Shown piece after piece: positions 852 through 23,819 of a stretch of 28,856 nucleotides of DNA. Source of the stretch: a virus; IMG/VR virus record IMGVR_UViG_3300020182_000140, positions 1-28,856 of that record; one strand, given 5' to 3'. The notes under the pieces were generated by a model that was given only the letters and a program-made list of their open reading frames with translations, ran no database searches and was not told the DNA's origin. Within the stretch, counting starts at the first letter, position 1. Each line of letters begins with the position of its first letter. The translations under genes were made by a program, and so were the position numbers.

Positions 852-861
852 GGAGAACATC

Positions 862-1263: not shown

Positions 1264-1271
1264 GGAGATTA

Positions 1272-3047
1272 ATGATGCCAATTGCACCATTGCCAAAATT
1301 CGGGCTTGGAGGTCTGATCACAGATCAACCCAAAGAATCCCTCGACCTGACTTACTTTGATGATGGTCTTAACATGCGCTCAGACGATGGTGCGCTTACT
1401 GGCGTCTACAGCTTTGATGATGATGATCTACGCCTAAGGCTATTCCAACTAGCTATTGATGGCGTAGATTACCCATCTGACATTTCTACTATTAACCCTA
1501 TCTACTTAACACAGTGGACTCAGGCAGGTATCGAATACCTTGATGTCCTTACAGTAGGACTAGATAATGGTGATGCTGGTAAGGTATATATCACTGGTGG
1601 AGATAACGATACTGCTATCGTAAATAGCTGTACAACCTTCTACCCATTTACTTATGACCCAATCTATGGGTTTAACTCATTCATCTTCAACGAAGTCGCT
1701 ATCCTTAACACAGTCACAGCCCCACCAATGTACTCATTCGATAGAGAGAACTTCTGGCAGCTACCTAACTTCTTTGGAGAACCCACAGGCCTAGACTTGA
1801 CAGAGGTAAACATACACAACGTCTACTCAGTCTCAGTAGTTACTGACCCAGACTGGACCTCTATTGGTGGACCTCTGAATGCAGTAGTCGGCTCCGTATT
1901 CACTTCAACAGTTGCAAGCGCTGATATTTCTGCACTTGGCTCAGTTAAGTTCATGGAGTTGTACACAGCTAAGAGGATGTGTGTTTACAACGGTCGTCTG
2001 ATCGCTATGAACCTCTTCAATGATCTGGACACTGTTGATGAATCAGATGACATCAAATCACCTATTGAGGTAGCATGGTCTACGTCCGTAACTGACATTG
2101 GCTCTATTATCAACCTACAGTGGTATGCGTCCTTTACTAACACAGCTGGTAACAACTTCCTGACCCAAACTCCGGGAAAGGTAGTAGATGGTAAACAGCT
2201 AGGTGAATTCCTGATGATCTACAAGACTGACTCAGTCTACAGATTGCAAGATGCAGGTGATCCCCTCTTTCTTGTTGGCGAGACTGCCTTCCTTGATGAT
2301 GGCATTCTATCTGCGGACTGCGCAATTGACATAGGTTCTAACCGACATTTCGTGGTAGGACAATACGGTCTATATATTCACTCTGGTGGTCCTGAGAAAC
2401 AGGACATTGCAGAGGATAAGAACGTAACTGGACTATACAATGATTTGCCAATCTCTATCGCTGACCGCGCTCTGACCTTCTGCTTTCATGACTCTCTTCA
2501 ATCAGAAGTATGGACATGTTACAGGCACAGGGAAGCATCAGCTGCTGATCCTAATAAGGGCTGTACACGTGCATTAGTCTATAACTATGTAGATGGCACT
2601 TTCTATAGACGAACTCTGCCAAATGTCACTAAGATTATTGAGACAGAGATTAACGGTGTAGTTGAGATTGTTGCAGCCTCAAGAGATGTTGTCGCTAACT
2701 CTATCACATTAGGTAGTCTATATATTCTATCTAAGGACACTCTAGTAACTGATGGTTGGATTCAATTCACCTCAAGAGACTTGGGCATGATTGAAGTAGT
2801 AAAAGAGATTGACGGAATGTGGCCTACTGCCCAAGGAGATTTCGAATGCAAGATTAAAGGTTCCCTTTCTTCCACAGCACCAGATATGTCTGTAATCACC
2901 CCAGCAAACTTTACTGCTGCCACAGATTACAAGATGGACTTCCGACAGCTTGGTCGTTTCCATACTTTCCGAGTAGAGATGAGTGGTACTATTAATCCTG
3001 TTATCTCAGGTATGAAAGTAGACATGAAGCCACTAGGAGAAAGATAA
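1272..3047 (+). CDS. Tail nozzle / tubular protein B-like virion protein (591 aa)
   Basis: Virion structural protein. The N-terminus has the pattern LGGLITDQP followed by a short spacer and LNMRSDDGAL. This resembles the opening of podovirus tail tube B (T7 gp12-like) and stabilisation proteins, where a Gly-Asp-Pro motif precedes an N-x-R...DG element. The rest is beta-rich with frequent aromatic residues, consistent with a propeller-type nozzle, and contains seven cysteines. It is preceded by AGGAG and followed by a TAATG overlap with the next gene. The tail-tip assignment is inference from N-terminal motif, size and operon place between holin and core genes. A different tail hub protein is the main alternative. 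Confidence 0.55.
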   Translation: MMPIAPLPKFGLGGLITDQPKESLDLTYFDDGLNMRSDDGALTGVYSFDDDDLRLRLFQLAIDGVDYPSDISTINPIYLTQWTQAGIEYLDVLTVGLDNGDAGKVYITGGDNDTAIVNSCTTFYPFTYDPIYGFNSFIFNEVAILNTVTAPPMYSFDRENFWQLPNFFGEPTGLDLTEVNIHNVYSVSVVTDPDWTSIGGPLNAVVGSVFTSTVASADISALGSVKFMELYTAKRMCVYNGRLIAMNLFNDLDTVDESDDIKSPIEVAWSTSVTDIGSIINLQWYASFTNTAGNNFLTQTPGKVVDGKQLGEFLMIYKTDSVYRLQDAGDPLFLVGETAFLDDGILSADCAIDIGSNRHFVVGQYGLYIHSGGPEKQDIAEDKNVTGLYNDLPISIADRALTFCFHDSLQSEVWTCYRHREASAADPNKGCTRALVYNYVDGTFYRRTLPNVTKIIETEINGVVEIVAASRDVVANSITLGSLYILSKDTLVTDGWIQFTSRDLGMIEVVKEIDGMWPTAQGDFECKIKGSLSSTAPDMSVITPANFTAATDYKMDFRQLGRFHTFRVEMSGTINPVISGMKVDMKPLGER

Positions 3048-3487
3048 TGGGAACCACAGTACCAATTCCTATGGGGATCAAGGATAGGGCGGCTTACGCT
3101 GCTCTACTAAAGATCGCCCGTACACTGGCAAGAACAACAATACTCTCAATCTCTGAGAATGGTTCAGTTGCTCTAGCTGACGATCTTACAATTACTAATA
3201 CAGCAGTCTATGCTCTACAGGAGTCAGTAGAAGTCGTTACATCCCTCTCTTTTGAGGAATTTAATAAAGACTCAGTAATGTATCAATTTGGTGCAGAATT
3301 GAAAGGAGATATAGGATACACTGAAGGTGATCCAAATCTTCCTTCTGCTTATGTTAATACAACTGTAAAGGCTCCATCGTTTGGAGATAATGACACAAAT
3401 GTAATTCTACAAATGGACCTCTATGTGAGAGCCATCGACTCAATCTCTGGTTCAACTATTGAATGGAAGATTAAGAAACTTGAATGA
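3047..3487 (+). CDS. Unknown small virion-operon protein (146 aa)
   Basis: Not recognised. The start ATG overlaps the stop of the upstream nozzle-like gene as TAATG, indicating translational coupling. The protein has a short N-terminal helix (about 10-35) and then alternating polar and hydrophobic stretches suggestive of beta structure. There are no cysteines, no signal peptide and no membrane segment. Its position between the nozzle-like protein and the gp13-like protein suggests a small tail accessory or completion protein; this is inference from context only. Confidence 0.6.
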   Translation: MGTTVPIPMGIKDRAAYAALLKIARTLARTTILSISENGSVALADDLTITNTAVYALQESVEVVTSLSFEEFNKDSVMYQFGAELKGDIGYTEGDPNLPSAYVNTTVKAPSFGDNDTNVILQMDLYVRAIDSISGSTIEWKIKKLE

Positions 3488-3494
3488 GGACAAA

Positions 3495-3941
3495 ATGAAA
3501 ACACTACCTATGATCCCACCAGCTGATATGGTGCATCTAATGCCATTGTTTGAGAAGTATGTAAATCAAGCGTTCCACTCAGGAAATGGTGAAACTTCAT
3601 ACGCATCTCTTATAGGTAAGGGATTAAAGGGAGAAGCTCATTTCTGGGCTTTGATGGAAGACGAAGTATGTCATGGAGTCTGTACTACTGAATTTGCAGT
3701 ATATGATGGCTATACATGCCTACATCTAATCACATTAGGCACAGACAACAAATCAAATTGGCAAGATTGGCACCACTTACTAGAAGACTTCTCACGGCAT
3801 CATGGATGTAGAGAGATTCAGTTCTGGGGTAGGAAAGGCTTTTCTAGGGCTATTGATGTTGTAACTGGTTCTAAACAAGAGAAATATAAAGAGATATACC
3901 GTGTATTCTCAATGGAGTTAAATTATGATTCTACTAAATAA
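3495..3941 (+). CDS. GNAT-like protein, analog of T7 internal protein A (gp13) (148 aa)
   Basis: Size, hydrophobic pattern and position resemble T7 gp13, a small acetyltransferase-fold protein needed for assembly of the internal core. The sequence has an N-terminal amphipathic helix, a central segment HFWALMEDEVCHGVCTTE and an end like IYRVFSMEL, as in GNAT folds. No clear acetyl-CoA loop is visible, so catalytic activity is doubtful. It contains several cysteines, unlike the six genes that follow. The start was placed at ATG 3495 with GAGG upstream; the longer in-frame start at 3459 lies inside the preceding gene and lacks a clear ribosome site. The next gene overlaps its end by 17 bases. 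Confidence 0.5.
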   Translation: MKTLPMIPPADMVHLMPLFEKYVNQAFHSGNGETSYASLIGKGLKGEAHFWALMEDEVCHGVCTTEFAVYDGYTCLHLITLGTDNKSNWQDWHHLLEDFSRHHGCREIQFWGRKGFSRAIDVVTGSKQEKYKEIYRVFSMELNYDSTK

Positions 3942-4695
3942 AATGTTGTACGGTCATAGCCTGATTGAGTCTATGGGTATCGTATATAAAGGAGGCGGTT
4001 CTAGTGGTACATCTACTGGTACATCTTCCAGTAAACTAGAAGTTGACGCTGCATACCAACCAGACGTAGCTCAAGCTATGGGTTCCCTCCGTTCTCAATA
4101 TGAGGATGGTTCACTTGGACAAGTTGCAGGAGCCTCTGATCTACAGACAGAAGCTTTCGGAGCAGCCACAGGTTCAACTAACACTGGTTTAGACGCCATA
4201 AGATCAGCGCAGACAGGTTATACAGACGCTATGAATGGTGTAGGTCAATTTGATGCTACTGCTATCGGTGATCTTGAACAAGCTGCTATCGCTCAAGGTC
4301 AGAAGGCCCAAGGAGTGCAAGCTGATGCCTTTGCCAATTCCGGTTCTATTGGTGGCTCCAGATCAGCTATTGCTGCTGGTGATCAGGAAGCACAGCTAAC
4401 TGCTAACCTTGCTAAGATCAAGTATGACCAACTAAATAAACAAAGAGAGTCAGCCATGTGGGGAGCGTCAGGACTAGAGCAATCTGGTATGAACGAAGCC
4501 AGCACTCTGACTAACAACATCCAAAGTCTCTTCTCTCTTGGTGAAGCCCAAAGAGGCATTACTCAGGAAGAACTTGATGCAGAAGCGAAAGGTCTGGAAT
4601 CTTATATCACTGGCATCACGTCAATGCAAGATTTGATCTCAACCAACACTACTACATCATCCTCAACATCCTCCCAAAAGAAGAGTGGTAAATAA
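3925..4695 (+). CDS. Internal core / ejection protein, gp14-like (256 aa)
   Basis: After about 20 residues comes a Gly/Ser/Thr-rich linker, then a long Ala/Gln/Ser-rich helical body. A central GSIGGSRSAIA motif followed by a helix of the type QEAQLTANLAKIKYDQLNK resembles internal or ejection proteins of podoviruses. The C-terminus is a Ser/Thr-rich low-complexity tail ending in lysines. There are no cysteines. GGAG lies about eight bases before ATG 3925, and the gene overlaps the preceding one by 17 bases. The likely role is part of the inner core that is released into the host envelope during DNA entry. The function is inferred from composition, size and order (after the gp13-like gene, before the lysozyme). 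Confidence 0.6.
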   Translation: MILLNKMLYGHSLIESMGIVYKGGGSSGTSTGTSSSKLEVDAAYQPDVAQAMGSLRSQYEDGSLGQVAGASDLQTEAFGAATGSTNTGLDAIRSAQTGYTDAMNGVGQFDATAIGDLEQAAIAQGQKAQGVQADAFANSGSIGGSRSAIAAGDQEAQLTANLAKIKYDQLNKQRESAMWGASGLEQSGMNEASTLTNNIQSLFSLGEAQRGITQEELDAEAKGLESYITGITSMQDLISTNTTTSSSTSSQKKSGK

Positions 4696-4697
4696 TC

Positions 4698-5123
4698 ATG
4701 GCTTTCGAACAACTAAAACAAGCTCAAGCCCAACGTGGTCGAACACCTCTACAGGCACCATCTGCTTCTGCCCCTATGGCTCAAGCTCCAAATATTGGTC
4801 CATCAGCTGGAGAACAGATTGGTGGTATGGTCGCTAATAAAGTAGCTAATGAAGGTATTAAGTATGGGACTAAACTTCTAACTGGTACTGGTGGTCCTCT
4901 GGCTGGCTTAGCTGGTGCTGCTGCTCCCGCTGCTGCTGCTGCTCCACTAGCTGCTGCTGCTCCACTAGCTGCTGCCGCTCCTCTAGCCGCTGCTGCCGCT
5001 CCTGCTGCCGCTGGTGCCGCTGGTGCTGGTGCTGCTGGCTTAGCTGGCGCTGCTGCTCTTGGTCCTTTAGCTCCTATCGCACTTGGTGCTATGGCTGTAA
5101 GAAAACTTGTTGGAGGAAAGTAA
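4698..5123 (+). CDS. Ala-rich hydrophobic core protein, putative pore former (141 aa)
   Basis: Residues about 1-50 are polar and Gln/Pro-rich. Residues about 65-135 are almost only Ala, Gly, Pro and Leu, including three PLAAAA-type units. The C-terminus ends with a short basic segment (VRKLVGGK). The hydrophobic part is long enough to span a membrane more than once and has Gly/Ala spacing that would allow tight helix packing. It contains no cysteine. It lies between the gp14-like protein and the lysozyme, so a role in making a channel in the host envelope is a reasonable inference. No family was recognised. The ribosome site is weak, and coupling to the gene two bases upstream is likely. Confidence 0.6.
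   Translation: MAFEQLKQAQAQRGRTPLQAPSASAPMAQAPNIGPSAGEQIGGMVANKVANEGIKYGTKLLTGTGGPLAGLAGAAAPAAAAAPLAAAAPLAAAAPLAAAAAPAAAGAAGAGAAGLAGAAALGPLAPIALGAMAVRKLVGGK
4932..4985 (+). repeat. Three tandem 18-nt GCT-rich units inside the Ala-rich gene
   Basis: Two identical 18-base units (four GCT codons, CCA, CTA) occupy 4932-4967. A third with three base changes follows at 4968-4985. The unit encodes AAAAPL and is in frame. The flanking region is also GCT/GCC rich. The lack of stop codons in the opposite strand here is a result of this composition. Confidence 0.9.
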
Positions 5124-5900
5124 ATGGGTAGACCATCAGCAGAGATGATTGATGCGGTCAATGAACTAGCTGCTGCTAATAATTGGTCGCCTCAAGATAT
5201 TATGACTGTCTTCTCGTATGAGACAGGTGGAACTATGGACCCATGGCAGAAAGGACCAACCACTAAGTGGGGTCAACACCGTGGACTTATCCAATGGGGA
5301 GAAGAACAAAGGAACAAATATGGCGTATCTCAAGACACACCTGTCAGAGATCAAGTTATGGCCGCTGGTCGTTACTTTAAAGATAGAGGTGTAAAGGAAG
5401 GGGATGGACTCCTACCAATGTATGCATCTGTTAACGCAGGTCACGCTTCTAAAATCCATGCATCTGATGAAGCTGCTGGAGGTGCGCCGGGAACTGTTCT
5501 TGATAAAGTAAGAGATCAAATGGGTGGTCACCAGAAGAATGCTGCTGGTTGGCTAGGTAAGGACTACGTTCCTTCTAAATCTGATAATCGATCCCAAGAT
5601 GAATCTTCGGTTCCTACTATTGAAGCAAGTCCAGATTCAATGGGAGTTCCTGAAATGGCAGACAGTCTAACACCACCTCCTATTGATATGCTTGACGATC
5701 CCGTTGGTTGGGCTAAGCAGGAAGGTAAGGGCTTTGCTCAGACTATGGCTAAAAAAGGTATTCAATCTCTTCTTGGTGGAGGAGGTAACGATACGCCACT
5801 CCCACCACCTCCACCATTAATTGAAGCTGCTCCTATCCCACGTAGAGGCGCACCAAGAGGACCAGTTGTTCTGGTTCAACGTAAGGAGAAGAAGAAATGA
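5124..5900 (+). CDS. Virion-associated tail lysozyme (258 aa)
   Basis: The N-terminal 145 residues form a phage tail-lysozyme / lytic-transglycosylase-like domain. A helix (about 5-25) leads into FSYETGGTMDP with the likely catalytic Glu at 33, followed by HRGLIQWG and a Tyr/Gly-rich helical part. The domain would cleave peptidoglycan locally during genome entry. In T7 this activity is the N-terminal part of gp16; here it is a separate protein. The C-terminal 110 residues are disordered and Pro-rich with a polyproline stretch and a basic end. There is no signal peptide, consistent with delivery inside the virion and not export for lysis. No cysteine is present. GGAGG precedes the start, and the stop overlaps the next start as ATGA. 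Confidence 0.75.
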   Translation: MGRPSAEMIDAVNELAAANNWSPQDIMTVFSYETGGTMDPWQKGPTTKWGQHRGLIQWGEEQRNKYGVSQDTPVRDQVMAAGRYFKDRGVKEGDGLLPMYASVNAGHASKIHASDEAAGGAPGTVLDKVRDQMGGHQKNAAGWLGKDYVPSKSDNRSQDESSVPTIEASPDSMGVPEMADSLTPPPIDMLDDPVGWAKQEGKGFAQTMAKKGIQSLLGGGGNDTPLPPPPPLIEAAPIPRRGAPRGPVVLVQRKEKKK

Positions 5901-7678
5901 GTATTTTTGATTGGGTGACTGACACCTTTGGAAGTGGAAAGATGGAGAGTTCTCCTTCTGTTATGGAAGAAGGGACTAAAGTGATTGATCCTAGAGAAGA
6001 AGAAGCAAGACGTATTATGCATCAAGAGAATCAGAAAGAGACATTCTCTAATGTAGTCGGATCGTTGGGTGACCTTTTCGGAGGTGGTCGGGATTATGAG
6101 CGTCCTAAGATGAGTCAATCTGCACAAGCTGGTTGGATGGATGATAAACTAGGCAGTGGTCCAGCTGAACTTTTGGCAAAGGAAGCGCAAGAATCTGATA
6201 TTGTATCTGGTAATCCTAATATTATTGTTGATGGATACGCTGAACAAGGTCAACCGGGATACGCTGGTGGCATCAAAGACTTTGGTACACCACCTCCGGT
6301 AGTAGAAGATGAAATTCCTAACATAGATGATGGCACAGATGTACCTCATCCTGACGCTGGTTGGATGGAAGAAATGCTGACAGGACCGGGAAAAGGAGAC
6401 GACTTTGTACCAACTCACCCAGATGCAGGACATATCGTAAAGACTCTAACTGAACCGGGAAAAGGTGATCCAGAGGAAACAGCTAATCCTCATCCTGAAA
6501 AGACTATGAGTGAACCTGTTATTGATACTGATCCTGACATCACACCGGAAGAAGCAGAAGAAATTGTTAAGACAGTTGATTCTGTACCTGATACTGATGT
6601 ACCCGATGGCACATCTAAGGATGCTGCTAAGCAGGTTGCTGCCGAAGATCCAAAAGGATTCAAGAAAGCTATCTCTTGGTTTACTAAGACATTCGGTATT
6701 GAAGGTCAGGACTTGGCTCGTGCTGCTCTATTTTATGCAGGTTCTCGTATTGCTGGATATGACCACTCTGGTTCTATGTCCTTCGCATTTGAACAAAGCA
6801 TGGGAGATATCAGACAGAGACAAGCCTACACAGAATCTATGATTCAAAGTGGTAAGTACACACCTGAGTCAATCGCTGAGTTTAAGAAGACTCGTGATAT
6901 CTCTAAGCTCAAACAGCATGTTGATCCCGCTAAGATTAAACCTACTAAACGCGATCTTACTAAACCTTATGTATCAAAAGATGGTACAAAGTATTATGAG
7001 ACAACTGATGGTGATGGTAATAAAGCCTTCACTAATGCTGGTGGTAAGCTTTATACAGGTGGGGAACAACTTAAAGAGCTTAAATCACCTGAAACACTTG
7101 GAGAGATCATCGATGAACAAGGACCAGTAATTACATCTGGTATGAATGATGTAATCAAAAGAACTGGTATCGATGCTACTAAAAAGGGTGTACCTATTAA
7201 TACCAACTTCCAAATTTCTACTGACGAAGCTTCTAGGGCAACTATTCAGATCATTAACGATCAGATGGGTGGTATTGGTAGTTCCGAACAACTTAACTCA
7301 GGACTTTATACAAGAGTAGCAAATAATGCTATCAGGGCTGCTATCAATGATGCCCAAGTATCTGGTAAAGTAATCAAGGATATCACTCCTTATGTTCTAG
7401 CTGAGATTCAGTATTATGAAGATAAAGAGGAATGGCAGCGTGGTCTTCTTAATAAAGATGGTGAAAAACTTAAGATAGAAGAATGGCAGCATATCACTAA
7501 TGATATTATCAAGCGTGACTCACCAGAGTTTAAAGCTTTGATGGCCAAGGGATATACTCAAGATTATATCATCGACCACGTAATGAAAGAGCAGTATAAG
7601 GAATACCTTAAAGCTACTCCAGAAGATAAGAGGAAGCCAAACGGCTTCTGGTTGTATATGCAAAACACAAATAAATAA
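5897..7678 (+). CDS. Unknown ejection-operon protein with acidic repeat region (593 aa)
   Basis: Not recognised. Residues 1-250 are acidic, rich in Asp, Glu, Pro and Gly, and probably disordered. They contain a 23-residue repeat (HPDAGWMEEMLTGPGKGD at 151-168 and HPDAGHIVKTLTEPGKGD at 174-191) and a weaker copy at about 76-91. Residues 258-593 look folded: a helical part (ISWFTKTFGIEGQDLARAALFY), a Lys-rich linker, a short beta-rich part around 360-390 and a helical C-terminus. No cysteine is present. The start overlaps the lysozyme stop (ATGA) with AAGGAG five bases upstream. Context suggests an inner-core or cargo protein; it could be a scaffold or adaptor for the two large proteins encoded next. 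This is inference. Confidence 0.65.
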   Translation: MSIFDWVTDTFGSGKMESSPSVMEEGTKVIDPREEEARRIMHQENQKETFSNVVGSLGDLFGGGRDYERPKMSQSAQAGWMDDKLGSGPAELLAKEAQESDIVSGNPNIIVDGYAEQGQPGYAGGIKDFGTPPPVVEDEIPNIDDGTDVPHPDAGWMEEMLTGPGKGDDFVPTHPDAGHIVKTLTEPGKGDPEETANPHPEKTMSEPVIDTDPDITPEEAEEIVKTVDSVPDTDVPDGTSKDAAKQVAAEDPKGFKKAISWFTKTFGIEGQDLARAALFYAGSRIAGYDHSGSMSFAFEQSMGDIRQRQAYTESMIQSGKYTPESIAEFKKTRDISKLKQHVDPAKIKPTKRDLTKPYVSKDGTKYYETTDGDGNKAFTNAGGKLYTGGEQLKELKSPETLGEIIDEQGPVITSGMNDVIKRTGIDATKKGVPINTNFQISTDEASRATIQIINDQMGGIGSSEQLNSGLYTRVANNAIRAAINDAQVSGKVIKDITPYVLAEIQYYEDKEEWQRGLLNKDGEKLKIEEWQHITNDIIKRDSPEFKALMAKGYTQDYIIDHVMKEQYKEYLKATPEDKRKPNGFWLYMQNTNK

Positions 7679-7688
7679 GGATAATGAC

Positions 7689-10600
7689 ATGAAAAGTAAT
7701 GCGGAAATTATGGCTAATATGCCTGATGCGCCAGTAAACAAAATAGGCGACACAGATTTCAGCTTTATTGACGGTGACACTGTTAGAGATAGCAGTGGTA
7801 ACTCGATCCGTATTGCTGGAATTGATACTCCTGAAGTAGCCCACACAAGGGATGTTTATACAGAAGAAAGATTTAGAGGAACTGCTGCTGGTGCTGTGAC
7901 TACTGAGGTAGTTGCAGACCTTGCTCGTAAGAAAGGCTTTACAGAAGTTGTGATATCTGATGAAAAGGGTGTTTATGGGCGTAACATTGGTGACCTACGT
8001 AACCCTGAAACAGGAGAACTCTACTCTCAGTGGGCTATTAAGAATGGCCTTGCACCACTCCGTAAAGGTGCTTCCGTTGGTCAAGAGACTTCTTTCTGGG
8101 AAGGTATTGCAGAAAGACAAAGTGGTACTCAGGACGGGGATGCTGCTCTGGGAAGAGCTAAGATTCAAGATGCTAACCTTGAGCAGATGGCACTCAGTGG
8201 GGATCAAGATCCGTTCAAACAGAATGCTATTAACGAGATGCAATACGCTCAAGATCCGGATAAGTATTCTGGTGTAGCCATCAGAAACCCAGACCGCACT
8301 ATGATGAATGAAGCTAAAGACCAGTGGACTACATCTTTTGATACTGCTCTTATTGGCATGACAGATGCTTTCGGAGGCTTCCAACAGATTCTTGGACAAA
8401 TGACTGATAGTCCTGATCTTGTACGTACAGGAGAAGAGCGTTCTGCTGCAGCCAGATACAGAATGAGACTTAACCCAACTACTACTCTTGACTTAGGAGA
8501 AGTAGAAGGTGTAGGTGACTTCGTTGACTACTTGGCTAACAACATGGCTATGTCTGTTCCGTATATGGCGACAACCATCGCCTCAGGCGCTACAGGGACC
8601 ATGACAGGGGCAGCTATCGGTATGACTACTGGTGGTCCAATAGCAGCTGGTGCTGGCGCTCTAACAGGGCTTGCAGTAGGTCTGAGCGCCCCTATGGCAC
8701 TCTACTCTGGGCAGGTCTACAATGAACAGGAAGTAAAGAGTGAAAAAGCTGCTCTTATTTCTGGTTTCACACAAGCTGTATTAGATAGGCTTGGTATTAA
8801 AGGTATCAAGACAGGCTTTAGTGTAGGCTCCACGCTTAAAGAGGCAGAAAAGGAACTTATTAAGCAAGGTATGTCGAAAGAGGCTGCTAAGAAGATTGTA
8901 GCTACCGAGTCCAGACAGGTCATTTCTAAGTATATGGATGATGCTGCTGTATTCGCTAAACGACAAGTCTCAGCACGAAACCTTTCTAGAGAAGTAATCG
9001 CTAGATTTAGTAAGGGCTTTGGACAAGAAGCTGTAACGGAAGCAATGCAAGAAGCTGTTGCTTACGCTGGTGCAAACCATGAGAAAGAGAATTGGGGTAT
9101 TCTTGAAGAAGGTAAGTTCGCAGATGCAATGCTTGAAAGAATGGGCAAAGCTGCTATAGCGGGCGGTCTTCTCGGTGGTTCTATGGGTGCAGTAGGTGCT
9201 GGTGCTAACCGTCTAGGTTGGGCTGATCAAGCTTATAACCTCTCTGATGGCACTAAGAACATGACTAAAGCTGATGTATGGTCTGCAGAAGCAGAGAAGA
9301 ATGGTGACTTGTCTCATGATGAGTTCCTTCAAACCATGCAACATGATGGTAAAACTGATCCTCGTACTGACGTTCCATACCGTGTAGCTAACTTTATGAA
9401 AGATCAGAAGGATAAGAGTGCTAAAGACAAGACAATTGAAGCTCTGTTTACTATGCCTCGTCTATGGCGTGGACAGATGAGAGCTAACTTCGATCAGGAA
9501 GTATTGGCTAAATCTCCTAATGCTCGTAGAATCTGGGGTATGCTAGGTGGTGCTTTGAATAGAGTACACGCTGGCCACACTTTCGAGGATGCTAAGCACT
9601 TCAATAACCAACGCTATATCCAAATGAGTGGTAACCTTGGCCGTAAGTCTCAAGGGTATAAAGGTATCATGAGAGATTCCAAAGCTGCTAAAGAGTATTC
9701 TAAAGACTTCTATCGTGTTGCTGCATTGAAGAATGCACATGATGAAGCTGAATACAATAAAGCTCAGAAGGATAAATCATATACTCGTAAAGAATGGGAT
9801 TGGTCTGGTACTTCTCCTAACGATAAGAGTACATTCCAACAGACGTTTAGGGATGCAGAAGCTACTGCTGATGCTATGATCCAGAGACAGAACCGTTCAT
9901 GGATGTCTGGACTTGTTGGTGTTAAGCCTAAGTTTAAGAAGATCAATAACTATCTTTTGCGTTATAAAGCTATTGATAAGAAAGTATTGCAGGGTAAGAG
10001 AGAAGAGTTCCAAACACTTCTTAATGCTGAATATGGTATGCCTACAAAGGATGCCAACGATCTTATTAATCGTATTCTTGAACCACAAAGTGAAACAGGG
10101 GTAGATGACACAGTCTTCTCAATGCTAACTAATGGCTTTCACCCTTCTAACTCTAAGAAGCGTACAATCGGTATGTCTGAGAATGCTAAACTATCTGAGT
10201 TCTTTAGCCAAGACGTGGCTCATAACTTTGGTGAGGCATTCCGTTCTGCTGCTCGTTTCGAGGCTTACCACGACTATGTTGGTAAGGATAAGTGGAAGAT
10301 TAACCAATTGATGCAGGGAATGATTGAGGATGGTATTGATAGTAAAGAGGTAGACAAGCTTGCTTGGAACCTTGAACGATACTTCCAATCTGAATCAGGT
10401 AACTACAAGCGTCCTCCAAAAGGAACTCTTGGTGACCGTCTGTTGACAGTACAGAAGAACCTATTGTCTTACTCTGTTCTGACCGCACTCCCACTATCAG
10501 CTTTCTCTTCTATTGTTGAATTGGCTCTCACTATGAAAGCTATGAACAATGAACAGATGTATGGTAAGAATGGACTCATGAATATGGGTTCTGAACTTGG

Positions 10601-11678
10601 GCGTATGATGGCCAGAGGCTTTAGACGTGTAGGTGTTGAGACATGGTCCGGTAATATGCTACTTGATAAGAGTGCAGTCGGAGAGTTGATCAACGTACTA
10701 GGCTACAATGAACAGGAGACAGGTGCTGCTACCACAACTGGTGCAACCGAAGTATCAGAGTTCAGGAGAGTCTGGATGGATAACTTCTTCAAGTATAACG
10801 GTCTGCAGGGACTTACTAATGCTACAAGAGCAATCCGTGCAAGCATGGCTAATGACTTCATGTTGAACCACATGGAGACTATCATGAAAGCTGAAGGTGT
10901 TGATACTAATGCTGTAAGACAAGCAAAGCAACAACTTCGTGATCTGGGATTAGATGTCCCACGTCTGGCTAGATTGATTGAGAAAGATGAAAGAGCTATG
11001 CAACAGTTTGGTTTGGATAATAAGGTTAATGGACCGCTCAGACTAGACGCAGAAGAGCAAGCCTTTATGAAAGATCAGATGATGCTTGCAACCTACAACT
11101 TTGTAAATGATGCAGTTGCACTTCCCGGTGCAGCTAACAGACCACTTCTCTATCAAGATCCAAGACTAGCCCTGTTGACACAGTTCAACGGTTACATTGC
11201 AACATTCCAAGCTACGATTCTCCCAAAGATGTGGGGAGATTATATCAAGCGTGGATCGCCTATGATGAAGTTTAATACCTTTGCTCTGATGGCGACAATG
11301 GTTATCCTTGGTGGTGCTTCACAGTACCTCAAAGATTGGCTAAAGTATGGTGAAGGTGAGAATCCTTATCTGGATAAATCACAACTTGTTAGACGAGCAG
11401 TAAACTCTTCTGGTATTCTTGGTACGAGTGAGAGAGGACTAAATCTTCTCTTTCCTTTGTATGGAAGATCAGAAAATCAAGGCCTCCCATCAATGCTATT
11501 CGACACTGTAACAGGTGAAGCTCCTGCCCTAAGTCCAGTACTTCGGATGAAGCAAGCAGCATCGGATGTGTATAATGAGGAGTATGACAAAGCAAAGTAC
11601 AATGCTTTCCGAGCAGCGCCCTTTGTAGGACCAGCCACAAACCTAGCTAAATGGATTAGCGGTACTGGCGATAATTGA
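7689..11678 (+). CDS. Large ejection protein with N-terminal staphylococcal-nuclease domain (1329 aa)
   Basis: Residues about 20-125 are a staphylococcal (thermo)nuclease domain: IDGDTVRD (D28, D30), IRIAGIDTPEV (R41, D46, E49) and VYGRNIGDL (R98). These match D19/D21, R35, D40, E43 and R87 of the S. aureus enzyme, so metal-binding and catalytic residues are kept. Gly/Ala-rich hydrophobic stretches at about 285-340 and 486-506, long helical regions and a C-terminal hydrophobic segment (FNTFALMATMVILGGA) resemble large internal proteins of podoviruses (T7 gp16-like role). There is no cysteine. AAGGA precedes ATG 7689. It follows the lysozyme and the 593-residue protein and precedes the virion RNA polymerase candidate. 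The likely role is DNA ejection, with a nuclease carried into the host. The nuclease call is firm; the time and target of its action are inference. Confidence 0.75.
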   Translation: MKSNAEIMANMPDAPVNKIGDTDFSFIDGDTVRDSSGNSIRIAGIDTPEVAHTRDVYTEERFRGTAAGAVTTEVVADLARKKGFTEVVISDEKGVYGRNIGDLRNPETGELYSQWAIKNGLAPLRKGASVGQETSFWEGIAERQSGTQDGDAALGRAKIQDANLEQMALSGDQDPFKQNAINEMQYAQDPDKYSGVAIRNPDRTMMNEAKDQWTTSFDTALIGMTDAFGGFQQILGQMTDSPDLVRTGEERSAAARYRMRLNPTTTLDLGEVEGVGDFVDYLANNMAMSVPYMATTIASGATGTMTGAAIGMTTGGPIAAGAGALTGLAVGLSAPMALYSGQVYNEQEVKSEKAALISGFTQAVLDRLGIKGIKTGFSVGSTLKEAEKELIKQGMSKEAAKKIVATESRQVISKYMDDAAVFAKRQVSARNLSREVIARFSKGFGQEAVTEAMQEAVAYAGANHEKENWGILEEGKFADAMLERMGKAAIAGGLLGGSMGAVGAGANRLGWADQAYNLSDGTKNMTKADVWSAEAEKNGDLSHDEFLQTMQHDGKTDPRTDVPYRVANFMKDQKDKSAKDKTIEALFTMPRLWRGQMRANFDQEVLAKSPNARRIWGMLGGALNRVHAGHTFEDAKHFNNQRYIQMSGNLGRKSQGYKGIMRDSKAAKEYSKDFYRVAALKNAHDEAEYNKAQKDKSYTRKEWDWSGTSPNDKSTFQQTFRDAEATADAMIQRQNRSWMSGLVGVKPKFKKINNYLLRYKAIDKKVLQGKREEFQTLLNAEYGMPTKDANDLINRILEPQSETGVDDTVFSMLTNGFHPSNSKKRTIGMSENAKLSEFFSQDVAHNFGEAFRSAARFEAYHDYVGKDKWKINQLMQGMIEDGIDSKEVDKLAWNLERYFQSESGNYKRPPKGTLGDRLLTVQKNLLSYSVLTALPLSAFSSIVELALTMKAMNNEQMYGKNGLMNMGSELGRMMARGFRRVGVETWSGNMLLDKSAVGELINVLGYNEQETGAATTTGATEVSEFRRVWMDNFFKYNGLQGLTNATRAIRASMANDFMLNHMETIMKAEGVDTNAVRQAKQQLRDLGLDVPRLARLIEKDERAMQQFGLDNKVNGPLRLDAEEQAFMKDQMMLATYNFVNDAVALPGAANRPLLYQDPRLALLTQFNGYIATFQATILPKMWGDYIKRGSPMMKFNTFALMATMVILGGASQYLKDWLKYGEGENPYLDKSQLVRRAVNSSGILGTSERGLNLLFPLYGRSENQGLPSMLFDTVTGEAPALSPVLRMKQAASDVYNEEYDKAKYNAFRAAPFVGPATNLAKWISGTGDN

Positions 11679-11708
11679 AACACGAATGAACTCTGAGGAG
11701 ACACGTAG

Positions 11709-14700
11709 ATGAGTAAGTTTAACAGCGGTGCGGTTAAGACAGCACAAGCAGGAACACAAACAGTTTCTGATTCGATCAAAAGATCATTGGAATCTATTCC
11801 TGATATTGTGGAGAAAGAACTAGAAGTAACAGCACCTGCTGATGAACAGGTACAAGCTCCTATGTCTTATGAAGATGAGGGAGCGTATGACCAGAACCTT
11901 GGTTATAGTCCAGAGGGTAACGTACTCCCTCTTGGACAACGTGCCAATATGGCTGCGAAAGGTGAACTGAATCCACGGATCAGCACCGCCGCACCTGAGG
12001 GCTATGACCCAAGAGCAGTAGAAAGATCTGCTGCACCTGATCTTGATCCTAATGATCTACAGGACTTTCCAAAACAATTCCCTACTCACAGATCTGCACC
12101 TAATAAACAACCATTGGTTAATATGAGTGACAGAGCCAAGAATATGGCAGAGGGAATGGTTAACCACACCATCGGTGGTAACTGGCACTTCAATAAAGCA
12201 GAACGTGCTATGATTGATCCTGCCAACCTATCGGATACTCCTACACCAGAGCAGATAGCTGATAGAGAAAGTGGCTTCTCCCAGAAGAGAGAACGTTCTA
12301 ACTCTCTTGGTGAAGTTATGACTAACAAAGTTCCCAACGCTGTGTCGTTTGACTCAGTGGGTAACTATGCTATCAACCCTGAGTTTGCTAGACTCATGTC
12401 TGTCACAACAGAAGACCACATTCCTAATATGTTCCTTGGAACTCCTGCTGAGATGTTTGAGGAAGACTTCGAGACTTCTAAAGCTGGTGATCTGAAGCCT
12501 AAGACTATTAACCCTGTTGAGAGCGCTGGGCAGTTGGGTAGACAGATTATGTACTGGCATGATAAGACACAGGAGGCCAACGGAGGTCAAAAGCCACCAG
12601 CCTTGTCTGATCAAGAGTATAAGGAACTTGGTGCATTTGCTATTCAAGCTTACCAACGTGGTAATCCTAATCTTGTTGCTATTGCGAAAGATAACCAGAA
12701 AGAAGATGGAGATGGAATCGGTACTCGATATATTCTTACTTCTGATGGGGAAGCTGAGTTCGCTCGTTCTGATCCTTATCGTAAAGATATCTTTGGAGCC
12801 AAGATTCCTCCCCTACACTCTCGTCCTGTTGATGGATTGCTGCCAGAGAATCTCTCTGGACTCAGACCACAATTTAAGAACAAGAGAGCGCTGGGCAAGT
12901 TGAAGATGGTTGAAGAGTCTTTAAAGAATCAGTCTCAGGTCAACTACGTTGTCGACGTCCGTAGATCACGTATTGCTATGGCTATGATCATTCCTACTAT
13001 GTTCCGTAATCCCGGTGCAGAAGGTGATATCTTTGGTAACGTCTTTGGTGTTGGTGAAGTTGCATTGAAGCAAGCATTCATCAAAGAGACTAAGCTAAAC
13101 AACAGGAGTCCTGAGGATGCAAAAGGAACAGCATACAACATCGTAAAGGGAAACAAGCTTAACCTGTTAAAAGAGATGTCTACAATCATCCAGAACTTGT
13201 ATAAGCCTAACTACCTTACATACGCTATCCAACAGAAGACATCACGCGCACACGCAATGCAGTCTGACTTTAACCCTACTCGAAATAAGGTGGTCAGATT
13301 CGCTACTCGTGGGCAGACACCAACAAAAGTAATTGCAGGATCACAACAGCAAGCTAACATGAAAGCTATCTTTGCTCTTAATCTTATGTCTGAAAAGCTG
13401 CAAGGAAAGGGTATGAATGACCTCTTGATGCCAAAGCAGAGGGCAGCAGAAGTAGATCGTATGATGGATGTGTGGTATAAGATGGGGACGGAAGTTAAGC
13501 AGCTTATCGACAACTCAATACCAGAAGAAACGTTCAACAGGATGTCAGAAGCTTTGAACCAAGGCATGCAACTCTCTGATCCTAATTTTCCTAAAGCTCC
13601 ATTGAAGAACTTTGGGGAAGGTCTTTCTAAGAATCTCCAAATTCTGTTGAAGGATAAAGGAGAAGATGCTCCAATGATGTTTGAGACATTGATGGAAGTA
13701 GTTGACTACATGGACAACATGAAAGCGGGAAGACCACATTACTCCTCTCTTAATGCTTATGTTGATGGTAAGACAAACGGTATCGCTTTGGCTGCTATGA
13801 TTCTCGGTAATGAGAAGCTGGCATTCCGAACTGGTGTTCTGCGTCCAGATGATGCCGTCTACTCTATGCAGGATGAAGAAGGGAACTCTCTCGACGTCCG
13901 TGGGGCTATGGCTCGGTTCATCTCAAACGAGATCAACGACAGAGCTGCATCTCAGTTAGAGGGTATGCCAGATATGGCAGATGATCAGCTTCATCTTATC
14001 AGTAGAGAGATGGAACTGGCTATGGGTAACTATAAGGAACTCAATAAATCTATCTCAATGATCTTTCCTTATGGTAAAGAACTGCAAGGTATGATTAATG
14101 AAGTTAGTGAACACTTCACAAACTTGATGGGTTCAGATCCTGAGTTCAACTCAATGGTTGAATGGCTGGAAGCCTCTGGTTATTCTATGGAAGATCAGAT
14201 GAAGCAAGTACACAAGAATGTTATCTCTTCTCTTTTCGACGTATTCGGAGAGGAAACATTTGAAGGTCGTGCTGTTCAAAGAGCGTCATCGTATCTTATG
14301 GCCGCAATGGACGGTGAGCTAGTGTATGTTGGCCCATCTGAAACTAATGTATCCTTGGCTGGTAAGAAACTTGATACTTCTAAGGTGCAGAAAGGTGTTG
14401 TATCTGCTCACGTACGTACTGAGGACGGTAAGAGAGATGAGTCTAAGCTTAACGTGCAGTCCTCTCCTTCTTATGCCAGTTCTGCTGGTGCTAAGAATGA
14501 TCAGATCGGTGCTGACGGACGTGCTTTGTCTGTTGTTGTACCTATCCACGCGGCTGATGCTGCTGTTGTCCACAGGTCTTTCTCTGGTAAATCTATGGAA
14601 AGAATTAAGGGAACGTATGCTAATCCAGATGATGCTTTCTTTACACAGATTTATGACGCTTTCAAAGTTGATGTTTCTAATTATCAAGTAGTCCTTGAGG

Positions 14701-15278
14701 AAATTAACCAAAACTTTGTTGACGTTTCTATGGAAAATAAGGATTACTTTGAGCTTGGTTATGAAGCAGTAACTAAAGCGCGGGCAGAGTTCCATAAGAA
14801 GTTGGAGACAATTCCTAAAGGAACTCAACTGAGTGTCTTGCCGGGATCACGTCTTGACTTTATGGGTCATCTACTTTCATCGGAAGTAGTTATGATTGCT
14901 GGTGCAGCTTCTAATAAAAACAGAGGCCTCCAAGCTTTTGTCAAGGGCATTACTCCCATGAGAGCTGGTCAGAGTATGGAAGCGTTCGACCAACTTGTTG
15001 GCAACCGTACAAGAGAACTCGCACAGATTCTTAATAAACTTCCCAATGTTGATGTGGGTGTACCCAACTCTTCAACGCGATTTGGTAAAGTTCATGAGGC
15101 GATCTCTAGGGAGACTGCGCAAGAGTTTTTGGAAATCCTTTTCCGATTCTCAGATTATTCTAAAAAGACAACAGCGTTCACCCAAAAAATTAAGGGAAAA
15201 CGTAGAAATCTTTTGAGTAAGATAAGTGAACAACAGAAGAGAACAGGGCATGGTGTGTATCAATTCTATGCACACTAA
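11709..15278 (+). CDS. Virion-type single-subunit RNA polymerase candidate (1189 aa)
   Basis: The C-terminal two thirds carry the motif order of single-subunit RNA polymerases. Motif A is VDGKTNGIALAAM (D686, as D537 of T7). Motif B is KELNKSISMIFPYG (K780 and Y788, eight apart as K631 and Y639; K776 stands where T7 has R627). Motif C is PIHAADAAVVHRSF (H947, D950, as HSQD812). FTQIYDAF (D983) matches the later IHDSF of T7. A candidate for the T/DxxGR element is VVDVRRSR (D416). A-to-B spacing is 94 residues in both proteins. Residues 1-250 are acidic and likely disordered. There is no cysteine. GAGGAG precedes ATG 11709. Its place as last gene of the virion operon resembles N4 vRNAP, whose catalytic core is about 1100 residues. 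Packaging and injection are inference; the polymerase call rests on motifs. Confidence 0.82.
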   Translation: MSKFNSGAVKTAQAGTQTVSDSIKRSLESIPDIVEKELEVTAPADEQVQAPMSYEDEGAYDQNLGYSPEGNVLPLGQRANMAAKGELNPRISTAAPEGYDPRAVERSAAPDLDPNDLQDFPKQFPTHRSAPNKQPLVNMSDRAKNMAEGMVNHTIGGNWHFNKAERAMIDPANLSDTPTPEQIADRESGFSQKRERSNSLGEVMTNKVPNAVSFDSVGNYAINPEFARLMSVTTEDHIPNMFLGTPAEMFEEDFETSKAGDLKPKTINPVESAGQLGRQIMYWHDKTQEANGGQKPPALSDQEYKELGAFAIQAYQRGNPNLVAIAKDNQKEDGDGIGTRYILTSDGEAEFARSDPYRKDIFGAKIPPLHSRPVDGLLPENLSGLRPQFKNKRALGKLKMVEESLKNQSQVNYVVDVRRSRIAMAMIIPTMFRNPGAEGDIFGNVFGVGEVALKQAFIKETKLNNRSPEDAKGTAYNIVKGNKLNLLKEMSTIIQNLYKPNYLTYAIQQKTSRAHAMQSDFNPTRNKVVRFATRGQTPTKVIAGSQQQANMKAIFALNLMSEKLQGKGMNDLLMPKQRAAEVDRMMDVWYKMGTEVKQLIDNSIPEETFNRMSEALNQGMQLSDPNFPKAPLKNFGEGLSKNLQILLKDKGEDAPMMFETLMEVVDYMDNMKAGRPHYSSLNAYVDGKTNGIALAAMILGNEKLAFRTGVLRPDDAVYSMQDEEGNSLDVRGAMARFISNEINDRAASQLEGMPDMADDQLHLISREMELAMGNYKELNKSISMIFPYGKELQGMINEVSEHFTNLMGSDPEFNSMVEWLEASGYSMEDQMKQVHKNVISSLFDVFGEETFEGRAVQRASSYLMAAMDGELVYVGPSETNVSLAGKKLDTSKVQKGVVSAHVRTEDGKRDESKLNVQSSPSYASSAGAKNDQIGADGRALSVVVPIHAADAAVVHRSFSGKSMERIKGTYANPDDAFFTQIYDAFKVDVSNYQVVLEEINQNFVDVSMENKDYFELGYEAVTKARAEFHKKLETIPKGTQLSVLPGSRLDFMGHLLSSEVVMIAGAASNKNRGLQAFVKGITPMRAGQSMEAFDQLVGNRTRELAQILNKLPNVDVGVPNSSTRFGKVHEAISRETAQEFLEILFRFSDYSKKTTAFTQKIKGKRRNLLSKISEQQKRTGHGVYQFYAH

Positions 15279-15520: not shown

Positions 15521-15830
15521 AACGTCGCCAATCATTAGAAGTGTCATCTCTGACTTCTCTAATCTCTTGCTCAAGTTTATCTACTTGTCTTTCTAATTCT
15601 ATTAAACGAGTAGTTAGCTCTTGTAGGTATGCATCGTCTTTATTATCTAAAGTCCATTTAGCCATTTGCTTTTTATCTCTCCATAGTTTCAATTCTTCCT
15701 CACGTTCACGTTGTCTACGTGCATTCTGAATTTGACCAGCTTCAATTTCTTGTTGGTCCTGATACGCATTGATACTCTCTTCAGATTGCCCACCGTATCC
15801 ATCACCCCAACCACGTCCGTAATTAGCCAT
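15519..15830 (-). CDS. Unknown coiled-coil protein (103 aa)
   Basis: Last gene of the minus-strand unit. The N-terminus (about 1-20) is Gly/Tyr-rich. The rest is a highly charged helix with Gln/Glu/Arg-rich stretches and, at about 67-95, a heptad-like pattern (LTTRLIELERQVDKLEQEI) expected to form a coiled coil. No catalytic motif, signal or membrane segment is present. The start overlaps the last eight bases of the RtcB gene, so the two are probably translated together. The stop lies at the edge of the bidirectional terminator. A structural or adaptor role is possible; no family was recognised. Confidence 0.65.
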   Translation of the reverse strand: MANYGRGWGDGYGGQSEESINAYQDQQEIEAGQIQNARRQREREEELKLWRDKKQMAKWTLDNKDDAYLQELTTRLIELERQVDKLEQEIREVRDDTSNDWRR

Positions 15831-17187
15831 TTGCTGCTTCCTTTTCTCTTTTCTTAACTCTCCAATGAGCCATATACTCTACATCACCAGCCATGATAGA
15901 ACCATAAGGATCAACATAGTCAACGATATTTGCCAGACCATAGAATTGAATAGCTTCCGTCACTCTGGCTGCACTCTTATAAGCATTGGGGAACTCTGAC
16001 TCATCAGGGTATCCACTCCAGAAGCGGTAGTCTATCTTTGGTGGAGTCTTATCAGCATCGGACTTGCTGTAAGCTGTACGAGACATATCCCGTCCTGCTC
16101 CATGTGGTGCGAACCCTAACGCTTCTTTGTTGTTAGAGTGTGATGTGATTAGGATAGGCTCTTCCATATTCATAGGGATCAGAGTGTGACCTGAGTCGTC
16201 ATCTGAGTGTCCTTTATAAGAAGGTGTTGCACCCTTGGCATGATGAAACTCATCTCCTTCTTTGAAGATAAAGTTATGAGGGTTCCAGAATTGGTCAGTG
16301 ATAGTTACACCACAGTGTGTGGCAATAGCATTATGCAGATCAAAGTGGTTACGCTTAGTCCATTCTCTGACTACACATAGTGCTTCCCAATATTCTTTAC
16401 CTTCTGCGCTATCGAAATCCAACCAAGCATGCTCTTTGTCAATTCCTCTGGCTCGTCGTGCAAGTAGCTTCTCCGCAACTCGCTTCCCATTATTGTAAAC
16501 CGATGCTCCGAACCCTCTTGATCCATGATGTGATACAATACAGACTCGCCCATTGGACCGTCTACGTCCCACGTAATAGAAATGATTTCCATCCCCTTGG
16601 CTTCCAAAGTCTCTTTGAGCCTTGCTTCCAAGATGTTGTAGGAATTGGTTTGAGTCGAAGTCTTCAATGAAACTGTCCTCAAGACTAATTCGTCTGCTTT
16701 CAACTTCCATAGGTCGGCTACCGAAGTGTGTGAACTCTTGGATAACATCTAGTAAGTCCTTCTGTGGGATATCTTGACTAAGCTCTGTAAGCGCCATAGA
16801 GCAGCATACATCAGCGCTGTGGTAGGATGGGTGCAGGGCGTTCTTAGTTGTGACCACAGCCCCCACTGGAATCGTTCCTGCAGGGCATGCATCTGGCATG
16901 ATGGCTGTTCTGATTACAGTAGGTACAACTCTGATGGCATCCATAGCTGCAAGTACACCTTCTTTATTCGTTAACTCAATATCATTACTGACATTCAGAA
17001 AGTCATTCATTGGTGCTTTATTACTCATAGGTAGGATAAGAGGCTCTTCACGCTTTAAGAGTGCAGTCTGAATCTCTTGTCGACTCATTCCTTTGACTGC
17101 CATTGAGTTTGCTACCTCAATACACTCCTTTACGAATGGACCTTGTCTAATACCCATCTGGATAATATCTTTTCCATCATATTCCAA
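15823..17187 (-). CDS. rtcB: RtcB-family RNA ligase (454 aa as annotated)
   Basis: RtcB joins RNA ends with 2',3'-cyclic phosphate or 3'-phosphate to 5'-OH using GTP and Mn. Residues of the active site are present: D126 and C129 in SADVCCSM, H202 in GDGNHF, H220 in HHGSRGFG, H304 in NPHNF, and the guanylylated His at 362 in PHGAGRDMSR. They correspond to D75, C78, H168, H185, H281 and H337 of E. coli RtcB. The usual DVH element is MPDAC here, so its His is replaced. A phage copy may repair tRNA cut by host anticodon nucleases (inference). The start is unclear: the frame opens with TTG 17187 without a good ribosome site, while a well-placed ATG at 17209 in another frame stops after ten codons. 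M11 (17157) is another choice. Confidence 0.85.
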   Translation of the reverse strand: MEYDGKDIIQMGIRQGPFVKECIEVANSMAVKGMSRQEIQTALLKREEPLILPMSNKAPMNDFLNVSNDIELTNKEGVLAAMDAIRVVPTVIRTAIMPDACPAGTIPVGAVVTTKNALHPSYHSADVCCSMALTELSQDIPQKDLLDVIQEFTHFGSRPMEVESRRISLEDSFIEDFDSNQFLQHLGSKAQRDFGSQGDGNHFYYVGRRRSNGRVCIVSHHGSRGFGASVYNNGKRVAEKLLARRARGIDKEHAWLDFDSAEGKEYWEALCVVREWTKRNHFDLHNAIATHCGVTITDQFWNPHNFIFKEGDEFHHAKGATPSYKGHSDDDSGHTLIPMNMEEPILITSHSNNKEALGFAPHGAGRDMSRTAYSKSDADKTPPKIDYRFWSGYPDESEFPNAYKSAARVTEAIQFYGLANIVDYVDPYGSIMAGDVEYMAHWRVKKREKEAANG

Positions 17188-23036: not shown

Positions 23037-23275
23037 ACTGATTCATCTTGAAATTTAATAACAACGATAGGCAGTTTACCTTCGCTGAGTTCTAATGTTG
23101 CATCGTAATACAACGTTTCACCTTCTGGAGTATGAAGCTCATCCATAATAGATGTGGCCCCAAGAGTTAGAAGAGGGTATCTACACTTTATAAATACCTC
23201 TTCCAGAAACTCATTAGGGACTCGCTCCACTCCCCGAACTAGGAGTTTTGTTTGCATCTTTGCAGTTGTCTCCAT
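23018..23275 (-). CDS. Unknown small protein (85 aa)
   Basis: Not recognised. It overlaps the endonuclease gene by 62 bases at its start and the primase-helicase by 19 bases at its end. The second in-frame ATG (23257) would shorten it by six residues; GGAG lies 12 bases before it, so the start is uncertain. The protein has alternating short helices and strands (LLTLGATSIMDELHTPEGE, then ATLELSEGKLPIVVIKFQDE), giving an alpha/beta character. The gene order places it among replication genes, but no function can be read. Confidence 0.55.
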   Translation of the reverse strand: METTAKMQTKLLVRGVERVPNEFLEEVFIKCRYPLLTLGATSIMDELHTPEGETLYYDATLELSEGKLPIVVIKFQDESVWLKED

Positions 23276-23819
23276 GCCAATGTGCTAAGTTAGCTACATC
23301 GCATTCATAATTACAATGAGGACATGTTCCTCTTGGCAAGTTGTATGCAGCTTTTCTAAGCTTCTCTCTTGTCTTCTCCGATACAATTGTAGGAGGGAGA
23401 AACTTGATAGCTCCAATAGCTTTGTTATAGTATTTCCGTGTACCGTCTGTCAGTACATCAGTCAACACGTTTTGGGAGTGTTGAAGATTAGTCTCAGTAT
23501 ATGTAAGCTCTGCTTGAGTCTTACACTCTGCTAAGATAATAAATTTAAACTTATCTTTACCAATCTTATCAATCTCTTCATTAAGCTCAGTAGACGATCC
23601 TGTATATTCACGCCATTTCATTTCGGTAAACTTCTTTCTATTTCTCTTATATCCTTTTAGAGGAGGAAGAGTAGTAACAGAGAAGTATTTCTTTTTACCG
23701 ATGTAAGCTCTTGTAGTCAGAGTGTTGACTACTAGGTACACAAAGCCTTGCATAGTCGATGGGTCAAGATCTCTCTCAAACTCCCAATGACCATTGTTCT
23801 TACTTATTTTTCCATTCAT
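23214..23819 (-). CDS. GIY-YIG endonuclease with C-terminal zinc finger (201 aa)
   Basis: The N-terminal nuclease domain begins GFVYLVVN (25-32; the GIY element reads FVY), followed by AYIGKKKYF (YIG at 39-41), EYTGSS and ILAECKTQAELTYTETNL with the likely metal-binding Glu near 109. This resembles the Seg-type GIY-YIG family of phages. SEKTREKLRKAA at 147-158 looks like a NUMOD3-type DNA-binding element. CPHCNYECDVANLAHWHGDNC (two Cys at 166 and 169, then His and Cys186) is a zinc finger of the type common in phage Seg and HNH enzymes. It overlaps the exonuclease by 20 bases, with AAGGAG before ATG 23819. It could be a homing enzyme or a resolvase or nicking enzyme of replication; its fixed place in the replication operon favours the second. 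Confidence 0.8.
   Translation of the reverse strand: MNGKISKNNGHWEFERDLDPSTMQGFVYLVVNTLTTRAYIGKKKYFSVTTLPPLKGYKRNRKKFTEMKWREYTGSSTELNEEIDKIGKDKFKFIILAECKTQAELTYTETNLQHSQNVLTDVLTDGTRKYYNKAIGAIKFLPPTIVSEKTREKLRKAAYNLPRGTCPHCNYECDVANLAHWHGDNCKDANKTPSSGSGASP

Follow-up and report, generated by a model that had tools for sequence, protein, structure and literature searches.

Evidence for a compact, N4-type RNA polymerase encoded at the end of a viral virion operon

Does a virus that already encodes a T7-like RNA polymerase (RNAP) carry a second one among its virion genes, and is that enzyme injected into the host? The question is raised by the IMG/VR virus record IMGVR_UViG_3300020182_000140, of which the analysed stretch of 28,856 bases is called the window here. 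The virion operon occupies the plus strand (30-15278) and faces a minus-strand block that encodes an RtcB ligase, the T7-like RNAP, a primase/helicase, an exonuclease, a DNA polymerase and a ribonucleotide reductase. The final gene of the operon, P0001, is a single open frame (ATG at 11709, stop at 15278) with GAGGAG 8 nt 5' of the ATG. Its product has 1189 residues and zero cysteines, both as described in a first-pass annotation that proposed a second single-subunit RNAP at this site. We find that P0001 is almost certainly a single-subunit RNAP by identity. It is probably a compact enzyme of the N4 lineage, reduced to the catalytic domain, which is injected and serves early transcription in podoviruses outside the Schitoviridae.

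Conserved polymerase residues and predicted fold

When searched alone, P0001 has no relative in Pfam, PHROGs, the PDB sequences, 50,697 phage genomes (tblastn) or IMG/VR peptide patterns. Relatives were reached through the resident T7-like RNAP: an alignment of four T7-like RNAPs akin to it led to 80 IMG/VR loci, in which the gene facing the T7-like RNAP is a P0001 homologue (phmmer down to 1e-135). A second scan, with the P0001 family as query, yielded 69 viral loci plus 2 genome contigs. Full-length relatives span 1117-1369 residues and, judged by homology, the family occurs in dozens of other phages.

Columns of polymerase type are invariant in 23 relatives, and also in 26 more diverse ones. 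Over 63 distinct sequences no change is seen (63/63) at D686, G687, T689, G691, K780, M784, Y788, G789, D950, D983 and A984, where the conservation of D686 and Y788 is partly ascertained (the family-scan patterns took in parts of motifs A and B) and K780, D950, D983 and R513 lie outside these patterns. R513 is conserved in all 59 sequences where it is aligned, and Y684 in 61/63 relatives. The invariant set includes D686, K780, Y788 and D950, the four residues by whose conservation among homologues the first-pass annotation had proposed to judge P0001.

Profile alignments map T7 D537, R627, K631 and Y639 onto D686, K776, K780 and Y788 of P0001, and T7 H784, D787, H811 and D812 onto H947, D950, Y982 and D983. 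From N4, residues R424, D559, R666, K670 and Y678 map onto R513, D686, K776, K780 and Y788. The catalytic positions of N4, which we take to be 559, 670, 678 and 951, agree with the N4 sequence. N4 motif numbering follows Kazmierczak et al. (reviewed in PMC4496689).

Motif A reads YVDGKTNG in P0001 and contains D686 as proposed, with K780 and Y788 eight residues apart in motif B. Other assignments needed revision. HAAD950, formerly taken for motif C, is present and keeps its Asp throughout, but corresponds to the H784-D787 element of T7; since T7 H811-D812 aligns with Y982-D983, the IYDAF stretch, which had been listed as a later element, is motif C itself. A candidate DxxGR element had been placed at 416-421; although conserved, R419 precedes the true position by about 90 residues, and the equivalent of N4 R424 is R513. 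The latter sits in a 'QxxxxR...FNP..NK..R' element that resembles N4 'TRVGR...YNPQSAK..R'. The Asp and Gly of the DxxGR-type element are not kept in P0001, likewise in several virion RNAPs (vRNAPs), and the Arg is retained. The A-to-B spacing is indeed 94 residues as in T7, but this has no weight as evidence (the spacing is 111 in N4). The resident T7-like enzyme has a spacing of 65, as had been noted, between D444 and K509. On these alignments all catalytic residues of a single-subunit RNAP are present in P0001, and RNA synthesis is predicted.

An AlphaFold model built with the A3 alignment of relatives reaches a predicted local distance difference test score (pLDDT) of 74.5 and a predicted template modelling score (pTM) of 0.72, with residues 1-133 disordered. 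The matches listed by Foldseek against PDB are all single-subunit RNAPs (best E 6.9e-15), namely yeast and human mitochondrial RNAP, T7 RNAP and N4 mini-vRNAP. VIA-align superposes the model on T7 RNAP over 541 residues (Z 27.5, 4.5 A) and on N4 mini-vRNAP over 773 residues (Z 25.0, 6.2 A), and viral predicted structures concur with the fold. As regards the palm/fingers polymerase core, whose absence would have spoken against the proposal, the predicted fold matches solved single-subunit RNAPs. The A3 sequence profile finds no RNAP among the PDB sequences, so that the structural likeness rests on the predicted model. Summarizing, the invariant catalytic residues and the predicted fold, together with the RNAP and vRNAP profile matches and the profile-profile alignment to N4 vRNAP given below, support the presence of a second single-subunit RNAP in this genome.

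Relation to N4 and T7-like polymerases

In PHROGs, 12 of 26 family members match phrog_414 RNA polymerase (best 5e-7) and 2 of the 26 match phrog_2206 virion RNA polymerase (7e-8); Pfam recognises PF00940 in 4/26 (7e-4). The relative L069 aligns to positions 1315-1494 of a 3406-position vRNAP profile, which is within the N4 catalytic core, and tblastn of L059 and L069 against phage genomes returns Schitoviridae vRNAPs as the only matches. A hidden Markov model (HMM) from 11 Schitoviridae vRNAP cores, run against 839 open reading frames of the loci, detects the P0001 family only (best 4.8e-13) and zero T7-like RNAPs. With hhalign, family A (that of P0001) aligns to the 11 vRNAP cores at 8.7e-13 against 0.03 for T7-like RNAPs, and subfamily C at 3.7e-19 against 0.009 (0.2-0.55 for a neighbouring virion protein family used as control), a contrast that is strong but not final given that the vRNAP and T7-like reference profiles differ in diversity. 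In a tree built on 117 core columns, A and C form one group (100/98) and are set apart from the T7-like RNAPs (100/100). The likeness to the N4 vRNAP catalytic core, suggested earlier, is supported by these profiles and by the 773-residue structural match, and the P0001 family very probably belongs to the N4 vRNAP lineage.

With N4 gp50, P0001 has in common about 773 residues of fold (mini-vRNAP, residues 998-2103; PDB 2po4, 3c46, 9pnq) and the TxxGR/NPxxxK, DGxTNG, RxxxKxxxxxxxYG and motif C elements, the last reading IYDA in P0001 and IFDG in N4. Both are final genes of the virion operon, encode no cysteine and share their genome with a second phage RNAP. Identity to N4 vRNAP is 11-12%, and N4 E557 corresponds to P0001 Y684. 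The N4 vRNAP consists of a lipid-binding N-terminal domain (NTD), an RNAP domain and an autoinhibitory C-terminal domain (CTD) (PMC12633501); Schitoviridae vRNAPs in general measure 2842-3820 residues, with NTD and CTD flanking the core and a motif ExDGxxxG (PMC10654107). P0001, with 1189 residues against about 3500 for gp50, has neither the lipid-binding NTD nor the autoinhibitory CTD. Polymerase aside, the virion genes checked are not recognisably N4-like. In a test for an N4-like portal, major capsid and terminase, which would mark Schitoviridae, single-sequence phmmer leaves N4 gp56, gp59 and gp68 unmatched in the window, Roseobacter phage CRP-7 and related loci, with one weak TerL match in Aeromonas phiA008.

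T7 RNAP and the resident T7-like RNAP have the same superfamily fold and catalytic residues as P0001. Unlike P0001, T7-like enzymes contain cysteine, are not virion proteins, measure about 800-880 residues and show DxxGR and HDS/HDA motifs.

The closest isolate to the resident T7-like RNAP is CRP-7 (36.6%), whose gp33 (QBQ72826, 'hypothetical protein', 1235 residues) is, like P0001, the cysteine-free product of the last virion gene, convergent with the T7-like RNAP gp30. BLAST finds no similarity between gp33 and P0001; in profile comparison, the gp33 family matches subfamily C at 9.3e-17. A homologue 83% identical to gp33 has a predicted single-subunit RNAP fold (pLDDT 61.7, Foldseek 8.8e-9, T7 Z 17.8), modelled from an alignment that included subfamily C. 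The CRP-7 subfamily aligns an Arg with the motif-B Lys of T7 (K631), and its motif A reads EADARQSNAG and its motif C IHDA; given the Arg and the altered motif A, activity is less certain there. The CRP-7 paper reports a single RNA polymerase, ORF30 (PMC6918029). A separate observation concerns CRP-7 gp07 (L106 2355-3401): this MoxR ATPase is homologous to N4 gp24 (3.4e-23) and is a further gene of N4 type among these phages.

For podophage StenR_269 and the Zobellviridae, a large cysteine-free virion protein has been proposed as an N4-like vRNAP on the basis of size, helix content and absence of Cys, with ICP2 gp6 named as comparable (PMC10747016). The StenR_269 protein and P0001 are both large, cysteine-free and encoded among virion genes.

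Virion packaging and rival explanations

Forty-five full-length relatives contain 2 cysteines in 54,679 residues, against 877 in 51,717 (17 per 1000) for the T7-like RNAPs of the same loci. In N4, the three proteins that are ejected, gp50 (over the 3342 residues seen), gp51 and gp52, have 0 Cys; most other N4 proteins tested contain Cys, and the major capsid protein gp56 as well as gp57 are cysteine-free too. In CRP-7, the three genes that close the virion set encode cysteine-free proteins, and in the window the proteins of 593, 1329 and 1189 residues all are. The T7-like RNAP is convergent in 71/71 loci found with the P0001 family as query (an earlier count of 66/66 was biased, those loci having been found via the RNAP), and a protein of the 1329-residue type lies directly upstream of the polymerase in 47 family loci. 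P0001 closes the virion operon and faces the early/replication block in convergent orientation, precisely where gp50 lies in N4 and EcP1. From this context, we infer that P0001 is packaged into the virion and injected.

P0001 would then be made late, alongside the virion proteins, and packaged. On infection it would leave the particle together with the DNA, by way of a channel formed by the upstream cysteine-free proteins (1329 and 593 residues), and would transcribe the entering early genes, presumably from early promoters, ahead of any phage protein synthesis. Newly made T7-like RNAP would take over, parallel to N4 RNAPII. The functions of the gp50 NTD and CTD may be dispensable in these phages or provided by another protein, and the 1329-residue neighbour is a candidate supplier of membrane or channel functions.

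Several observations weigh against an injected enzyme of N4 lineage. Lack of cysteine and position are unspecific for a vRNAP, as shown by ICP2 gp6 (1416 residues, L125 3411-7661): this internal virion protein has 0 Cys yet no match to the polymerase profiles built here, so that position and cysteine content support packaging only jointly with the polymerase identity. In the 117-column tree, A and C stand among the vRNAPs with moderate support only and on long branches, and plain identity over the same columns does not discriminate (P0001 to vRNAPs 17.2%, to T7-like RNAPs 20.7%). The vRNAP signature ExDGxxxG appears as YxDGxxxG in P0001 (Y684); ExDG does occur in some members of subfamily C, such as L059 (AEIDGNSNG). 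A search for hairpin promoters (short hairpin, 3-nt loop) recovered N4 P2 and P3 as controls and found no repeated perfect 5+/3 hairpin in relatives, except four copies in record G005. A related repeat, GAGTACTGTTA, folds as the hairpin in 1/3 intergenic sites only, and the early region lies outside the window.

A real single-subunit RNAP might also remain unpackaged, as a second polymerase that is made late and stays in the cell, where it would drive late transcription or transcription tied to replication and leave the middle phase to the T7-like enzyme. The intact catalytic residues would suit such a role, and so would the constant co-residence of a T7-like RNAP, given that two enzymes could divide the temporal classes inside the cell. 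We nevertheless consider it unlikely in view of the near-zero cysteine content (a trait common to N4's three ejection proteins, against the 17 per 1000 of T7-like RNAPs), the place as last virion gene, which in 47 loci directly follows another large virion protein free of cysteine, and the profile kinship to packaged vRNAPs. Another explanation holds that a T7-like RNAP was recruited to the virion independently and that the N4 likeness reflects convergence or shared single-subunit RNAP ancestry. Here the core identity, at least as high to T7-like RNAPs as to vRNAPs, the weak tree with its long branches and the phrog_414 matches in 12/26 members can be cited in favour. The hhalign values in both A and C point the other way, the family agrees with vRNAP in its DGxTNG motif A and its NPxxxK..R element, and the vRNAP HMM ignores T7-like RNAPs in the same data; independent recruitment therefore appears quite improbable.

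It is very improbable that P0001, though derived from a polymerase, has lost catalysis and serves the virion only as a structural or ejection protein, placed inside the particle or helping to translocate DNA. The virion operon context would fit, large cysteine-free internal proteins that are not polymerases do exist (ICP2 gp6), and the CRP-7 subfamily shows Arg for the motif-B Lys along with an altered motif A. However, both catalytic Asp, the motif-B Lys, the Tyr-Gly pair and R513 are invariant in the P0001 subfamily, which selection for a scaffold would not demand. Overall, the compact, injected N4-lineage polymerase is the explanation we prefer.

Neighbouring features and implications

Table 1. 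Features of P0001 and of its neighbours in the window.
Feature	Position	Strand	Basis
Probable compact N4-type single-subunit RNA polymerase, P0001, 1189 aa	11709..15278	+	family conservation, profiles, predicted fold
P0001 N-terminal extension, residues 1-133, predicted disordered	11709..12107	+	AlphaFold pLDDT < 50
DxxGR/TxxGR-equivalent, residues 503-533, R513 = N4 R424	13215..13307	+	alignments
Motif A, residues 682-700, catalytic D686 = T7 D537 / N4 D559	13752..13808	+	alignments
Motif B / O-helix, residues 776-792; K776, K780, Y788, G789 = T7 R627, K631, Y639, G640	14034..14084	+	alignments
HAADA element, residues 943-953; D950 = T7 D787 (near H784), not motif C	14535..14567	+	alignments
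Motif C IYDAF, residues 979-988; catalytic D983 = T7 D812 / N4 D951	14643..14672	+	T7 alignment; N4 pairing via motif blocks
1329-aa cysteine-free virion protein, directly upstream of P0001, candidate ejection partner	7689..11678	+	match to phrog_6958 (virion structural protein) in the C-terminal part
593-aa cysteine-free protein, virion operon upstream of P0001, candidate ejection protein	5897..7678	+	position, cysteine count
Resident T7-like RNA polymerase, 794 aa, 8 Cys, convergent with P0001	17655..20039	-	PF00940 2e-53

Two further intergenic patterns were seen among the relatives. About five copies of CTATAAGGAACTTAGAGAA per genome lie between genes in G001 (L109-L111), G002 (L118-L120) and G003 (L112-L114), some of them approximately 25 nt before an ATG, which makes the element a candidate phage RNAP promoter; it was not found outside coding DNA in the window, G005, G007, G008 or CRP-7. 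A row of about four short hairpins is conserved in one intergenic region of the same three genomes (G001 39120-39210, G002 9810-9900, G003 3348-3440).

The N-terminus of the 1329-residue protein is staphylococcal-nuclease-like (phrog_452 1.1e-5, PF00565 0.003), which is unusual in an internal virion protein. Relatives of this protein are present in KPP25 and Aeromonas phage phiA008, and no polymerase of the P0001 family was detected in either. Between both RNA polymerases lies an RtcB-type RNA ligase (15823-17187, phrog_1075 9.6e-84) that may repair cleaved tRNA. The region 23214-23819 receives the PHROGs labels NAD synthetase (1.3e-35) and homing endonuclease (2.6e-18), and its family name is doubtful.

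Short vRNAPs are not described in the papers that our literature search reached. One extensive survey of N4-like viruses dropped all vRNAP homologues of < 2,500 residues (PMC10654107); this cut-off, together with the annotation of the CRP-7 copy as hypothetical, accounts for short vRNAPs having been missed. The N4 enzyme is regarded as unique in its giant size, and its outer two thirds are thought to be membrane-binding and autoinhibitory (PMC12633501). If our explanation is true, a natural family with the catalytic third alone, carried in the virions of other phages, makes the need for the outer domains of N4 directly testable, and the isolated CRP-7, which grows on the RCA roseobacter FZCC0042 and carries a homologue, opens packaging and early transcription to experiment. 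More tentatively, a large podovirus group outside the Schitoviridae might depend little or not at all on host RNAP: its entire transcription would be run by two phage enzymes, a compact vRNAP that is injected and serves the first genes, and a T7-like RNAP that transcribes all others. In that case the stand-alone catalytic domain would represent the ancestral or a reduced form of the giant N4 enzyme, in which the NTD and CTD would be accessory.

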